From a virus, in the IMG/VR virus record IMGVR_UViG_3300046003_001839, positions 1 to 22,387 of that record: 22,387 nt of DNA, one strand, 5' to 3'. The translations under genes were made by a program, and so were the position numbers. Positions 1-14,284 of this stretch are shown in pieces. The notes under the pieces were generated by a model that searched no databases, was not told the DNA's origin, and was given only the letters and a program-made list of their open reading frames with translations. Every line of letters starts with the position of its first letter. Position 1 is the first letter of the stretch.

Positions 1-391
1 GGAGAAGGAAGAGATATCACAAGGATAGGTGAAGCAACCCATTGAGCACTCACACACGCTTGCAAGGTCCCCTCTACTGTATTCATCCGCTACTCTACTC
101 AACGCCCCCTCGTGAAACCTTGGATGTACTGGGGCTGGGCTTGCGTGTTACTTGAAGGGGGCCACCCCGGGGGTCGGGGGGTCCTTATTCTTGCATATGA
201 CACCCTCAAAGTTTCCCAGAGAAATTCCCATCCGACTGGACCTGGGGGATACCATTTCGGGGGAGAGACATGATATGCTCCATCTGATGTTCCATGGCGG
301 CTAGGAGGTCTTCCAAGGTGACTCATCGGGGGGTACCATCCCCTATACTGTCTCGATGTGGAGATTAGGTAATTATTTGTCATTACCCCCA
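1..391. other. Non-coding leader block with G-tracts
   Basis: No convincing gene is seen here. All three forward frames open at the left edge close within 45 bases (stops near 28, 32 and 45), so at most the last few codons of an upstream gene are present. The + strand carries runs of five or six G at 157-161, 169-173, 176-181, 244-248, 259-263 and 328-333, plus GGGG at 131-134. The 157-181 part could fold as a GC hairpin or a G-quadruplex. A short motif, GGGGG(A)TACCAT, occurs at 244-255 and again at 329-339. A minus-strand frame of 97 codons (99-392) crosses the block but lacks a good ribosome binding site. The stretch just before promoter P1 (about 370-386) is A/T-rich and could act as an UP element. 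A control or packaging region is an inference only. Confidence 0.5.
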
Positions 392-420
392 TTGACTTTG
401 TATTATAAATATGCTATAAT
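392..420 (+). promoter_or_regulatory. Sigma-70 promoter P1
   Basis: The -35 box TTGACT (392-397) is separated by exactly 17 bases from a perfect -10 box TATAAT (415-420). The -10 box is preceded by TGC, giving an extended -10. A/T-rich sequence lies upstream. The expected start of transcription is near 427. The 15 bases AAATATGCTATAATA (407-421) recur with one change in the second promoter at 7095-7109. A terminator follows about 120 bases downstream, so the transcript would be short unless polymerase reads through. Confidence 0.85.
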
Positions 421-426
421 AAGAGC

Positions 427-585
427 ATAGCGCAAGAGAGCTCATGTAGATGTCACCCACAAGGGTAACTGAAATTCTTGTTTATCTAATCTTTAATCTT
501 TGTCATCTCTTCTACTTTATAACTTCTTGCCACCAACATCGCTCAAGGGGTACCCGAGCTTGTCCCGGTCCCCTTTCTTTTTGTC
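427..585 (+). ncRNA. Possible short leader or small RNA between P1 and terminator
   Basis: A transcript starting at P1 and ending at the hairpin at 545-575 would be about 155 bases long. No well-supported gene lies inside it. The only frame of note starts at ATG 450, has a weak purine-rich site before it and runs through the terminator, which argues against it. The middle part is pyrimidine-rich and looks unstructured, with a small stem CACCC..GGGTA-type hairpin near 454-467. It may be a stable small RNA, an attenuated leader of the tail spike operon, or simply a gap. The promoter and terminator are seen directly; the existence of the RNA is inferred. Confidence 0.3.
545..582 (+). terminator. 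Rho-independent terminator before tail spike
   Basis: AAGGGG (545-550) pairs with CCCCTT (570-575). An inner ACC/GGT pairing extends the stem beyond a bulge. The stem is followed at once by the T-rich tract TCTTTTTG. It lies between P1 and the spike gene, so it should limit spike transcription from P1 and from any early transcript entering from the left. Confidence 0.65.
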
Positions 586-617
586 CTCTTCCGTCCAAAT
601 TGGGCGTCGACCCTAGA

Positions 618-652
618 GCTTCGCTCACGAAGCGTTGCTTCTTATCAAAGGA
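618..652 (+). promoter_or_regulatory. Alternative hairpins and ribosome binding site of the spike gene
   Basis: GCTTCG (618-623) can pair with CGAAGC (628-633) around a 4-base loop. The same GAAGC (629-633) can instead pair with GCTTC (637-641) around a 3-base loop, so the two stems exclude each other. The Shine-Dalgarno sequence AAAGGA (647-652) follows within a few bases and lies 8 bases before the ATC at 661. This layout would suit translational or transcriptional control of the spike. Pairing is visible; the regulatory role is inferred. Confidence 0.35.
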
Positions 653-660
653 TTAAGACC

Positions 661-2700
661 ATCGCCAAACTTACCGTAAACCCGTTGCAGTCCGGTTACC
701 GTTCATCGAACGCCCTGAATGCCAACCTGGATGCTATTGAGGCCGCGCTCGAGAATACTCTGAGCCGCGACGGAACCTCGCCCAACCAAATGTCCGCCCC
801 GCTGGACATGAACAGTAACCGCATTACGAACCTGGCCGCGCCTGTGAGCGGTTCCGATGCTGCGCGCCTTACGGATGTGCTGACCGTGGCTCCTGGTACG
901 AATGTGGCGACCTTCCTTGGGGCACCTACTAGTGCCAATCTGGCTGCTGCCTTGACGGATGAGACGGGCACGGGGCTCGCGGTATTTAATACCTCGCCCA
1001 GTCTAATGACCCCGGTTATCACGGGCGGATCGATCACCGGCATCACCGATCTGGCGGTCGCTGACGGCGGCACGGGCGCGTCTTCCGCTTCGGCTGCGCG
1101 CGATAACCTCGGCCTGACCATCGGCACGAACGTTCAGGCATACGACGCCGATCTGACGACATGGGCGGGCATCACGCCGGGAACGGGCGTTGCAACGGCC
1201 CTTGCGGCCAATGTCGGCTCGGCTGGCGCTTTCACCACGTTCAACGGCGCGGGCGGCACTCCGTCGTCCCTGACGCTGACGAATGCAACCGGCCTTCCTG
1301 TTGCGGGTGGCGGTACGGGTGCGGCGACGGCGGCGGATGCGCGGACTAACCTTGCTGTAGTCGGCACGTCTGATCTGGCGGCATCGACCGGCGCGGCCTT
1401 GGTTGGTTCAATCACGACCGGAACCGGGGCAACCGCACGGACGGTTCAAGCCAAGCTGCGCGATTTCATTTCGGTCAAAGACTTTGGCGCAGTTGGCGAT
1501 GGGACGACAAACGACACAACCGCCATTCAAGCGGCTCTGACCGCTTTGCAAACGGCGAGCGCAACGGTAACGGGCGGCGTCCTGTATTTCCCACGCGGGA
1601 CGTATCTCATCACCAGCCCGCTAACCATTGACGCGACTGATGTTGCTGCGCTGGCGTCCGTGACCATTCGCGGCGACGGGATGCAAAACACCACGATCAA
1701 GGCCGATCCGGGTTTTGGCGGCGCGGGCATGGTTCGTCTGTTGGACCCGACATATTGCACCATTGAGGACATCGGCATCGACGCTAACAGCGTTGGCGTT
1801 CCCGGCATCCAGACGCCAAACGGCGGGAGCCACCTGACGCTTCGCCGGGTGTTTGCTCAACGCTGCACCAACGGTTTTGAACTGACCGATATGTTCATGA
1901 CGGTGCTGGAAGAATGCCGCGCCAAATCTTGCAGCGCCGGGTTTGTGTTTCCCGGCTTCCACACGTCGATGACGGTTAACTCCTGCTATGCGCTGGACTG
2001 CACGTTTTTCGGCTACGTCATTCAAGGGATGACCTATTCGACCTTTGCGAACTGTGGTTCGGACAGCCACGGTCGAAATGGCTATCTGGTCACCAACGCT
2101 TTTGGCGTGACGTTCCTCGCTTGCGGCGCAGAGGCTTGCGGGCGCTCGGCTTGGGAGTTTGAAGCATCGACCGCAAACGACGCTGGAAAGCCGATAGCGG
2201 GCATTCGGGTTGTTCTGGACAACTGCTTCGACACCGGCTGCGACACGGCGCTTGGCGGCTATGGCGGCTCGATCTATTCAAACCGCGCCAGTTCCTCGAT
2301 TGACGTAGAGGTTCGCAGACATAATCAGTTTGCCAGCGCGTCTGCGCTGTCAGTCGTTACGGCGGGAGCGGCCGATCACAAAATCCGTATTGACCCGACA
2401 GACAGCGTCTTTGTCGGTTCACTTTCCGGCCCCGGCTTGCGTCTGGCGCAATATACCGGCTCGGCTACCTACGACCCGCCGAGTTTGCTGACACTTACCG
2501 GAACGACAACCACGGTAACGGCCACGGGTGCCTCGCTAGGGGATTTTGCGTCAGCGACGTTCTCGCTCGATTTGCAAGGTATTACGGTGACGGCTTGGGT
2601 TAGCGCCGCCAACACCGTCTCTGTTCGTTTCCAAAACGACACGACGGGGACGATTGACTTGGCGTCCGGCACCCTGCGCGTCAATGTGGTTCCGTTTTAA
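661..2700 (+). CDS. Tail spike / receptor-binding protein with pectate-lyase-like beta-helix
   Basis: This is a virion receptor-binding protein that probably binds and cleaves surface polysaccharide. The N-terminal part (about residues 1-75) closely matches the start of the second fibre gene in this window, including LDMNSNRITNLAAPVSGS, and is the likely virion anchor. Residues 80-250 carry tail-fibre style repeats such as DGGTGASSASAARDNLGL. At about 268 the segment FISVKDFGAVGDGTTNDT begins a pectate-lyase-superfamily fold, followed by a beta-helix to about 590. The C-terminus ends in a small domain (SFSLDLQGITVTAWVS..) of a type I recognise from other phage proteins. The first ordinary start is TTG at 685, without a ribosome site. 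AAAGGA at 647-652 fits an ATC start at 661, which gives MAKLTVNP and parallels MAKL in the second fibre. The gene is richer in GCG and GGC codons than its neighbours, a possible sign of acquisition. No catalytic residues could be assigned. Confidence 0.85.
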   Translation: MAKLTVNPLQSGYRSSNALNANLDAIEAALENTLSRDGTSPNQMSAPLDMNSNRITNLAAPVSGSDAARLTDVLTVAPGTNVATFLGAPTSANLAAALTDETGTGLAVFNTSPSLMTPVITGGSITGITDLAVADGGTGASSASAARDNLGLTIGTNVQAYDADLTTWAGITPGTGVATALAANVGSAGAFTTFNGAGGTPSSLTLTNATGLPVAGGGTGAATAADARTNLAVVGTSDLAASTGAALVGSITTGTGATARTVQAKLRDFISVKDFGAVGDGTTNDTTAIQAALTALQTASATVTGGVLYFPRGTYLITSPLTIDATDVAALASVTIRGDGMQNTTIKADPGFGGAGMVRLLDPTYCTIEDIGIDANSVGVPGIQTPNGGSHLTLRRVFAQRCTNGFELTDMFMTVLEECRAKSCSAGFVFPGFHTSMTVNSCYALDCTFFGYVIQGMTYSTFANCGSDSHGRNGYLVTNAFGVTFLACGAEACGRSAWEFEASTANDAGKPIAGIRVVLDNCFDTGCDTALGGYGGSIYSNRASSSIDVEVRRHNQFASASALSVVTAGAADHKIRIDPTDSVFVGSLSGPGLRLAQYTGSATYDPPSLLTLTGTTTTVTATGASLGDFASATFSLDLQGITVTAWVSAANTVSVRFQNDTTGTIDLASGTLRVNVVPF

Positions 2701-9548: not shown

Positions 9549-9568
9549 TCAGTAGGGTTTGACATTGA

Positions 9569-9597
9569 GGGGGCTGCTGAAAGGTGGCCCCCTTTTT
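9569..9597 (+). terminator. Rho-independent terminator after the capsid block
   Basis: GGGGGC (9569-9574) pairs with GCCCCC (9587-9592) around a 12-base loop and is followed by five T. It sits 20 bases after the stop of the head-associated gene and before the holin-like gene. In T7 the terminator T-phi sits at the same point after the capsid gene and is only partly efficient. Downstream genes here have no clear promoter of their own, so read-through is implied. Confidence 0.85.
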
Positions 9598-9608
9598 GTT
9601 ACAGCGCC

Positions 9609-9869
9609 ATGGACATTGCACAGGAAATCACACACTACGAGACCAACCCTGCGATCATGTACAAATTAGGGCATATCGAGGCACAGCTCGCCGCAATCAA
9701 CGCCAAACTTGATTTGAAAGAGGCTGCACAGGACGTTTCAATCGAAGCCCTTCGCAAAGATGTTTCACAACTTAAAGATTGGCGGATGCTCCAACTTGGT
9801 GCTGCGGGGGCCATTTCATTCATTATCGGCATCCTAACTAAGGTGGTTACATGGCCAAGCTTGTCCTAA
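9609..9869 (+). CDS. XhlA/holin-like membrane protein
   Basis: This 86-residue protein has an N-terminal amphipathic or coiled-coil part (about 15-58, with IEAQLAAINAKLDLKEAAQD and IEALRKDVSQLKDWR) and one C-terminal transmembrane segment (about 60-80, LQLGAAGAISFIIGILTKVV). This is the layout of the haemolysin XhlA family, which acts in phage or prophage lysis and membrane association. No endolysin is adjacent, so a virion-linked or lysis role cannot be decided. The start follows the terminator T-run by 11 bases without a clear ribosome site. The 3' end overlaps the fibre gene by 19 bases. Confidence 0.65.
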   Translation: MDIAQEITHYETNPAIMYKLGHIEAQLAAINAKLDLKEAAQDVSIEALRKDVSQLKDWRMLQLGAAGAISFIIGILTKVVTWPSLS

Positions 9870-12111: not shown

Positions 12112-14284
12112 AGTCAATCGCCTATACAGGACGTTCGTCAAAGGCCTAATCACTGAGGCCAGCCCTCTAACGTACCCTGCCGATGCCTCCATTGACGAGG
12201 ACAACTGTGAGATTTTCCGTAAGGGCAATCGCAGTCGTCGTCTCGGTATGGACTTCGAAGACACCTATGCGTTGAGCGTGTATGCCTCGGCAGGAACCGA
12301 CAGCACCCGCACCTACCGCTGGGAGTCCGTTAATAACGATAGCGAGGTTAACTTTCTCGCCCATCGAATCGGGACGTCGATCTATTTTTACGACCTGAGC
12401 CTCAGCCCGCTTTCCAGTGGGCTAAAGTCGTTTTCAATTGACCTGACCCTTTTTGCGGCTCCCAACCAGACCGACCTGAATCTCGGCGAGGTTTCTATGG
12501 CAGGTGGTAAGGGCTATCTCTTTGTCGTCGGTGAAAAACTCGAACCCTTTCTTGTCGAGTACATCCCGGGCACAGATAGCGTCACCACGCAGCGCATCTA
12601 CGTTCAGATGCGGGATTTTCAAGGTGTCAATGATGGTCTGGCTAACGATGAAGAGCCTTCGACACTCACCGGTTTGCATCAGTACAATCTGATGAACCAG
12701 GGGTGGATTGATCCTCGTAACTCCGGTAGCGGAGGCACGGTCAACTACTTCGATCAGTTCGGCGGGATCGAAACCTATGCAGGCCCGACTACCGCCGTTA
12801 TCACCGCTTACCACACGGAGTGGTCCAAGTACCCGCCCAACAACAAACAATGGTGGGTCGCTAAAGACGCAACTACCGGTCTTTTTACCCCTGATATTCT
12901 GGGCACCTTTTTCAACGGCACGACGCGGGCCCCTCGTGGCCACTTTGTCCTAGATGCTTTCTACAAGGACCGCACAGCTGCTTCCGGCATTGCCGACATC
13001 CCTGTTGAAGCAATTTCGGACCGACCCCCCACGGTGTCTTTTGCGGCTGGCCGCGTCTGGTACGCTTGTAACTCGACTGTCTATTTTAGCCAGGTTCTCG
13101 ACGACAAGGCAAAGGCCGGATTCTGCTACCAAGAGGCAGACCCTACGTCCGAGGACATCAGCGACCTGATCGACTCTGATGGCGGTGTCATCCCTATCCC
13201 CGAGATGGCCAAGGCGGTTAAGATTCTACCATTCGGTTCGGGTCTTGTTGTTTTCGGAACTAACGGCATTTGGTATATTGGCGGAACTCAAGCTGGTCTG
13301 ACGGCCACGGACATCTCTGTCTCCAAGGTCAATCCCATTGGTACCGATAGTCCCGACAGCATCGTGGAAGCCGAGGGTCAAATCTTCTGGTGGTCCCGCG
13401 TGGGCATCATGGGGATGTCTCAGAAGTCTGGCCAGTTCGGTCCGGTGGAAGGCGTCTTTGATCGCACGAACACTACCGAGCAGACCATTCAATCCTTCTA
13501 TGTCCATGACATCCCGGAGGCCTCGAAGCCATTTGCCAAGGGTGTCTATGACCCGGCAACCAACAGGGTCCAATGGATATTTAAGTCTGGCACGACCCCC
13601 AGCTCGTACATGTATGACCGGGTGCTTAACCTAGACCTTACCCTCGGGGCATTCTTCCCGTGGACCGTTGAAACCGCCGGGCCTTACATCAGCGATATCT
13701 TCATTACAGCCAGCCTCAATACGCTGGTCGACCAGGAGAGCATCCGCAGCTCCTTTATCAAGTATCTCTGTGCCGTGCCTATCGAAGGCAGTATGTACAA
13801 ATACACCTTCGGGTACTTCAAGAGCTCCGAGTTTGCTGACTGGTATACCTACGACGGTGTCGGCACAGCCTATATGAGCTTTGTCGAAACTGGCTACGAG
13901 TTGCTGGAAGACGCCATGCGTAAAAAGCAGACACCTTATGTCTTCTGCTACTTCCGGCGCACCGAAGAGAACTACATCGAAAGCGGAGACGACTACACCG
14001 TTGATAAGCCCTCAAGCTGCTACTTCCAAGTAAAGTGGGACTGGGCCAGCTCTTCGAACTCGAACAAATGGTCTAGCAAGATTCAGGTCTACCGGCATCG
14101 TCGGACACCTCAATTCTCTGAGGATGACCTAACCTTTGATACCGGCTTCCCTATTGTCATCTCCAAGAATAAGGTGCGTGGCAACGGCAGGGCGATTCAA
14201 TTTAGATTTGAAAGTGACGAAATTGGACACGACTTTGATCTGCTCGGATGGGCCGTCCCCGTCGAAGGCAACACTGAATCCTAG
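12098..14284 (+). CDS. Tail tubular protein B (gp12-like nozzle)
   Basis: This 728-residue protein is the nozzle of the short tail and attachment point of the fibres. The opening FVKGLITEASPLTYPAD (13-29) with NRSRRLGMDFE (about 44-54), then RPPTVSFAAGRVWYACNSTV (about 309-328) and LVVFGTNGIWYIGGTQ (about 383-398), are recurring blocks of gp12-type proteins with a beta-propeller core. Its length is close to that of T7 gp12 (794). AAGGAG lies 4 bases before the ATG, a strong site. The last bases overlap the start region of the acetyltransferase gene. Confidence 0.9.
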   Translation: MARAKVNRLYRTFVKGLITEASPLTYPADASIDEDNCEIFRKGNRSRRLGMDFEDTYALSVYASAGTDSTRTYRWESVNNDSEVNFLAHRIGTSIYFYDLSLSPLSSGLKSFSIDLTLFAAPNQTDLNLGEVSMAGGKGYLFVVGEKLEPFLVEYIPGTDSVTTQRIYVQMRDFQGVNDGLANDEEPSTLTGLHQYNLMNQGWIDPRNSGSGGTVNYFDQFGGIETYAGPTTAVITAYHTEWSKYPPNNKQWWVAKDATTGLFTPDILGTFFNGTTRAPRGHFVLDAFYKDRTAASGIADIPVEAISDRPPTVSFAAGRVWYACNSTVYFSQVLDDKAKAGFCYQEADPTSEDISDLIDSDGGVIPIPEMAKAVKILPFGSGLVVFGTNGIWYIGGTQAGLTATDISVSKVNPIGTDSPDSIVEAEGQIFWWSRVGIMGMSQKSGQFGPVEGVFDRTNTTEQTIQSFYVHDIPEASKPFAKGVYDPATNRVQWIFKSGTTPSSYMYDRVLNLDLTLGAFFPWTVETAGPYISDIFITASLNTLVDQESIRSSFIKYLCAVPIEGSMYKYTFGYFKSSEFADWYTYDGVGTAYMSFVETGYELLEDAMRKKQTPYVFCYFRRTEENYIESGDDYTVDKPSSCYFQVKWDWASSSNSNKWSSKIQVYRHRRTPQFSEDDLTFDTGFPIVISKNKVRGNGRAIQFRFESDEIGHDFDLLGWAVPVEGNTES

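Follow-up and report, generated by a model that had tools for sequence, protein, structure and literature searches.

The question raised by this locus is why a strong promoter should be followed by what looks like an intrinsic terminator before the first late gene of a phage is reached, and what this arrangement would mean for the genes behind it. The window (i.e. the entire stretch of DNA analysed) is the whole IMG/VR virus record IMGVR_UViG_3300046003_001839 of 22,387 bases, a partial genome of a marine phage. The portal protein shares ~50% identity with its counterparts in Roseobacter/Lentibacter cobaviruses, Pseudomonas PA11-type phages and Vibrio ICP2, by which the contig is classed as that of a Zobellviridae-like podophage. 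Its genes, named by position and homology, make up a rightward late arm of spike, small terminase-like protein, an 89-aa protein, large terminase, portal, scaffold, capsid, tail and internal virion proteins; the order of fibre/spike, terminase, portal, scaffold and capsid on one arm, along with the portal and terminase homology, is that of the Zobellviridae late operon. Four close relatives (L001, L002, L008 and L009; large terminase 95–100% identical) have DNA upstream of the spike, and the five-phage comparisons below consist of these and the window, while a scan of the genome collection gave no relative. L001 lies on a 49.6 kb contig (L115) with identical 123-base ends, which looks like a complete genome; its early and late genes diverge from the leader region, the early arm heading away and the late arm beginning there.

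A first, sequence-only reading had proposed a very strong promoter ahead of the spike, and this is borne out. The late promoter P1 (392..420, + strand) combines a −35 hexamer TTGACT, a 17-nt spacer and an extended −10 element TGC-TATAAT (TG at 412–413), with a predicted start at ~427. Its score of 11/12 is near-consensus, and only one other + strand site in the 22 kb window reaches at least 11/12. All five phages have identical hexamers, TG and spacer length (17 bases). Further away, promoters of the type TTGAC[A/T]-17-TATAAT occupy the corresponding position in L006, L007, L019, L025, L121 and L128, and L130 and L134 also have one there, with a weaker −35. A strong promoter in this position is in fact found family-wide, roughly 90–210 bases past a conserved terminus-like block.

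In the window this block (165..232, not assigned to a strand) is non-coding, lies upstream of the leader and contains G-runs, TTGCATATGACACC and CAGAGAAATTCC. Across Zobellviridae it precedes the late promoter and takes the form of G-runs followed by a CAGAAATTCC-type inverted repeat (equivalents at L118 107–187, L121 60–135, L122 6790–6870 and L120 2130–2205), and related blocks lie at the genome terminus or the edge of the direct terminal repeat (DTR). Since the annotated 159-bp DTR of ICBM2 ends inside the equivalent block, the block may be a packaging or terminase site. A conserved G+C-rich DTR end has been reported, and descriptions of the family mention terminal repeats and a bidirectional terminator between the arms (PMC6775973). 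The late region thus resembles that of Cobavirus/Zobellviridae in gene order, promoter place and terminus block; no mention of a leader terminator or leader RNA in this group was found in the descriptions consulted. Two side observations concern promoters elsewhere. Cobavirus late promoters share a first-transcribed stretch, TATAATAGTCTTAACAAGTCYCCCC, both before the late operon and before the gene after the capsid (L121 at 232 and 8738; L210, L216, L237, L241 and others; 47 stretches in viral_contigs). In L115, an extended −10 promoter scoring 12/12 at 12816 on the minus strand points backwards toward the end of an early DNA polymerase-like gene, from which an antisense RNA is possible, and a divergent 11/12 promoter at 12930 adjoins it.

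The terminator, which had been placed about 120 bases after the promoter, also stands up to comparison, its hairpin beginning ~118 nt past the predicted start. It runs from 545 to 582 (+ strand) and consists of an AAGGGG...CCCCUU hairpin (545–575) and a U-tract (574–582, TTTCTTTTTG), both of which are found in five out of five phages, with hairpin energies of −11 to −15 kcal/mol. The whole of 541–587 is nearly invariant in the window and its four relatives, and in L002 a change opposite U551 restores the pair, so that a modified hairpin is retained. With a single-sequence z-score of only −1.1, the terminator draws its support from conservation, not from energy alone; a pattern scanner made no call here, because the loop is too long. 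Judged by its sequence, the hairpin is predicted to be of moderate strength and would be expected to act as a terminator in the host, releasing a predicted leader RNA of ~155 nt (427..582, + strand), as indicated by the promoter and terminator positions and the conserved-structure tests described below.

It could also be that the hairpins merely form a structured 5′ untranslated region (an mRNA stabiliser or an RNase III site) and that the terminator terminates little. In L007 and several cobaviruses, strong hairpins stand at the same place before the spike or first late gene without a proper U-tract, which speaks for such a role. In the clade of the window, however, hairpin and U-tract are canonical and show little or no variation, and this explanation is considered unlikely. 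Elsewhere the place of the leader is taken by a hairpin and a T10 run (L006) or the leader is short (L025).

If the terminator works, the genes behind it depend on it being passed. In none of the five phages was a promoter-like site, even at 8/12, found in the interval from the terminator to the spike, and spike expression from host-type promoters therefore needs read-through. In phage lambda, the late promoter pR′ is likewise followed by a terminator, tR′, yielding the 6S leader RNA, and late transcription relies on antitermination by Q. The present locus shares with pR′-tR′ a strong sigma70 late promoter, a short leader RNA (here predicted) and an intrinsic terminator before the first late gene, with no other promoter between the two; at the level of sequence, promoter and terminator fall within ~200 nt ahead of that gene. 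It differs in belonging to a podophage with divergent arms, in the lack of a detected Q homologue in L001/L009, and in that the leader of the window clade carries a covarying multi-helix domain. The account given somewhat better than even chances is that host RNA polymerase transcribes the late operon from P1 and that the leader behind this promoter is an attenuator yielding a structured ~155-nt RNA. Transcription would start near 427, the first ~100 nt would adopt a conserved, junction-like fold, and a large fraction of the polymerases would stop near 580, freeing the structured RNA, whereas the mRNA for spike, the two terminase subunits (small and large) and portal would come from those passing the terminator.

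Nothing coding seems to explain the leader, as had been claimed before. In the window, an ATG at 450 starts an open frame of 68 codons (ORF 450–656), but indels and frameshifts break this frame in the relatives, leaving 23 codons in L002, 12 in L008 and 5 in L009, while L001 has no ATG at this place, and the coding explanation was rejected. The earlier claim that two mutually exclusive stems form a switch just before the Shine-Dalgarno fared differently. The stems (618–623/628–633 and 629–633/637–641) can be drawn on the window as first described, yet both are held in a 30-base insertion (616..645, + strand) that is unique to the window record, being absent from L001, L002, L008 and L009 and without another copy in the viral collection searched (viral_contigs). 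Moreover, the folding of 600–665 is exactly average (z 0.00). With neither stem conserved in relatives, which had been named as grounds for refutation, a translational or attenuation switch at 618–641 is highly improbable, and the competing stems are, on this comparison, not a conserved switch but a one-off insertion. Of the original proposal of an attenuation leader or ~155-base RNA, the promoter-terminator leader thus stands, by its conservation, its compensatory changes and the lack of another promoter before the spike, while the two-stem switch falls.

The covariation that had been suggested as a check was found further upstream, in a structured domain at 432..530 (+ strand). Here two long-range helices, P1 (432–438/523–530) and P2 (446–450/511–515), enclose P3 (452–458/463–469) and P4 (471–475/505–509), all on the + strand, with a conserved single-stranded CUUUAAUCUUUGUC near 490–504. 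The domain was proposed by RNAalifold on the five leaders, after which pairs were counted on the named structure, i.e. the structure was derived from the same five sequences used for the counting. Four base pairs are changed on both sides among the five phages, against 0–1 in slid controls, and 96.8% of cells are paired, against 44–57% when slid. Two of the compensatory pairs are in helix P2 (GUAGA/UCUAC becomes GUAAG/CUUAC in L001) and two in helix P4 (GAG/CUC in L002 and L009, GGA/UCC in L001 and L008). When columns were shuffled so as to keep conservation and gap pattern, the domain gave a z of −3.28 (1/300) and the whole leader −2.33 (3/300); of eight windows in a longer alignment, the one covering the domain (423–530, a different alignment) gave −1.74 and the others +1.2 to −1.4. 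Both long-range helices recur in the minimum-energy folds of all five phages, each folded singly. Because single-sequence energies are mostly unremarkable (L008 z −3.4, L001 z −2.3, the window z −0.7), the structural argument rests on comparison. That support is thin, given five sequences of shared ancestry and some changes shared by descent, and helix P4 is ambiguous, as L002 and L009 prefer an alternative pairing. Nevertheless, folding of the first ~100 nt of the leader into a shared, conserved domain is supported by these comparisons.

Some other candidate elements were considered in the leader. A closing helix (GAGC 423–426/GCUC 541–544) occurs in every minimum-energy fold and was left out of the model because 423–426 probably precedes the start site. 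On paper, the terminator loop GAGCUUG could form a pseudoknot with the 5′ CAAG-aga-GCUC, and the bases concerned never vary among the phages compared. A boxA-like UCUUUAA in the conserved loop is a core match only, is changed in L008, and is not claimed.

The prediction of an RNA with its own promoter and terminator also raises the thought that the short RNA is the main product, acting in trans (in host regulation or, for example, packaging), with late read-through as a by-product. The leader adjoins the terminus-like block, its stems covary, and identity is concentrated at the RNA ends and loops: the five phages hardly differ in promoter, start region and terminator, while the middle of the leader varies. 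Against this, no Rfam family matched at or above the gathering score (the best sub-threshold matches being chance-level), and a covariance model of the leader found no credible homologue beyond the five phages in 99 more distant loci, although operon and promoter are far more widely conserved; the spike would, furthermore, be left without a promoter. A role in trans as the main function is therefore regarded as improbable. The best new match of the model (L007 10917–11027, E 0.45) covers the post-capsid terminator of L007 and was discarded. As the promoter is family-wide and the leader confined to five phages, the terminator-bearing, covarying leader is a variation, at the level of this clade, on a late promoter that the whole family shares.

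Passage of the terminator might instead be a regulated event, in which a phage factor or a host Nus-type factor acts at P1 or the leader domain and processively passes terminators, so timing the late genes. The anatomy is that of lambda pR′, with a terminator ~120–200 nt downstream, the promoter-proximal RNA is structured, and the late operon has at least two terminators. Nor is a phage RNA polymerase known in the family (PMC9960094, PMC6775973); no homologue was detected here, an absence that rests on these papers and the ORF list. On the other hand, profile searches for the Q family (PF06530, PF03589) and sigma factors (PF04542) found no match in the L001 genome, which looks complete, or in L009, while the controls were detected; no antiterminator was seen among the early proteins scanned, and a leaky terminator requires no factor. 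Anatomically, factor-driven release in the style of lambda Q and a leaky terminator fit equally well, and regulated antitermination is, on the whole, considered rather unlikely.

The remainder of the late operon bears on the same problem. Apart from P1, the window has a single strong rightward promoter, P2 (7080..7108, + strand; TTGACA-17-TACAAT with TG), which lies inside a small gene ahead of scaffold and capsid. It is conserved in L001, L009, L030 and L031, similar TTGACA-17-TATAAT sites stand at its place in several relatives (e.g. L003, L004, L007 and L021), and the ICP2 record has an annotated promoter just before the gene corresponding to that at P2. A second, strong terminator (9567..9599, + strand; 12-bp stem, T5) follows the capsid genes, is conserved in the clade and has analogues across the family, and the genes past it have no strong promoter of their own in the window, so that passing intrinsic terminators appears to be a general need of the late operon. 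As a separate observation, in L128, L129, L130, L132, L135, L136 and L138 the 3′ arm of a hairpin that follows the capsid-adjacent gene runs directly into a −35 element (CCCCCTTGACA...TATAAT), and this fused hairpin-promoter stands where other relatives have the terminator.

In T7, expression of genes 11 and 12 depends entirely on polymerases that read through Tφ, behind gene 10, and this sets their relative amounts (PMC5592923). The window phage has a terminator in a comparable place and a similar P2-capsid-terminator arrangement, with host-type signals; T7, in contrast, uses its own polymerase, and the Tφ arrangement does not include a terminator in a leader in front of the first late gene. 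Under the attenuator reading, P2 would supply the scaffold and capsid genes, and partial read-through at the leader would keep the amounts of spike, terminase and portal below that of capsid.

In phage HK022, the put RNA is a promoter-proximal structured RNA that lies ahead of a terminator and acts in cis in antitermination. The present leader can be likened to it by description only, being also structured, promoter-proximal and before a terminator, and its helices are long-range whereas put consists of two adjacent small stem-loops. The suggestion that the leader domain works in cis as a new antitermination RNA, or serves a new phage antiterminator as its target, allowing both the leader and the post-capsid terminator to be passed while the ~155-nt RNA is released too, is speculative and not thought likely.

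The spike gene (661..2700, + strand) has no ATG start and apparently begins at ATC 661, not at TTG 685. The resulting ATC-A-K-L lies eight bases past a Shine-Dalgarno AAAGGA (647..652, + strand), a paralogue at 9851 begins ATG-A-K-L, and PHROG profiles align from their first residues at the spike N-terminus. The start codon is ATC in L002, L009 and L007, ATT in L001 and L008, and TTG in L006 (start positions: 661–663 in the window, 7067 in L001, 2247 in L008, 355 in L007 and 745 in L006). Initiation at AUC/AUU is therefore likely. As a general pattern, a good Shine-Dalgarno and an apparent ATC/ATT (or TTG) start mark spikes that stand first in the late operon, while most paralogues and most copies of this N-terminus located elsewhere have ATG.

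Taken together, the promoter-terminator leader is conserved and is most likely an attenuator with a structured ~155-nt RNA, which may accumulate as a short RNA while read-through would set or time late expression. For Zobellviridae, the literature found gives no account of how late transcription is switched on, and a leader terminator behind the only candidate promoter for spike, terminase and portal offers a concrete, testable control point; the apparent AUC/AUU start suggests that the spike level is also restrained at translation. The covarying domain, being outside Rfam, is a candidate new phage RNA, and, should it prove to act in antitermination, host RNA polymerase would be passing terminators in phages without a polymerase of their own.
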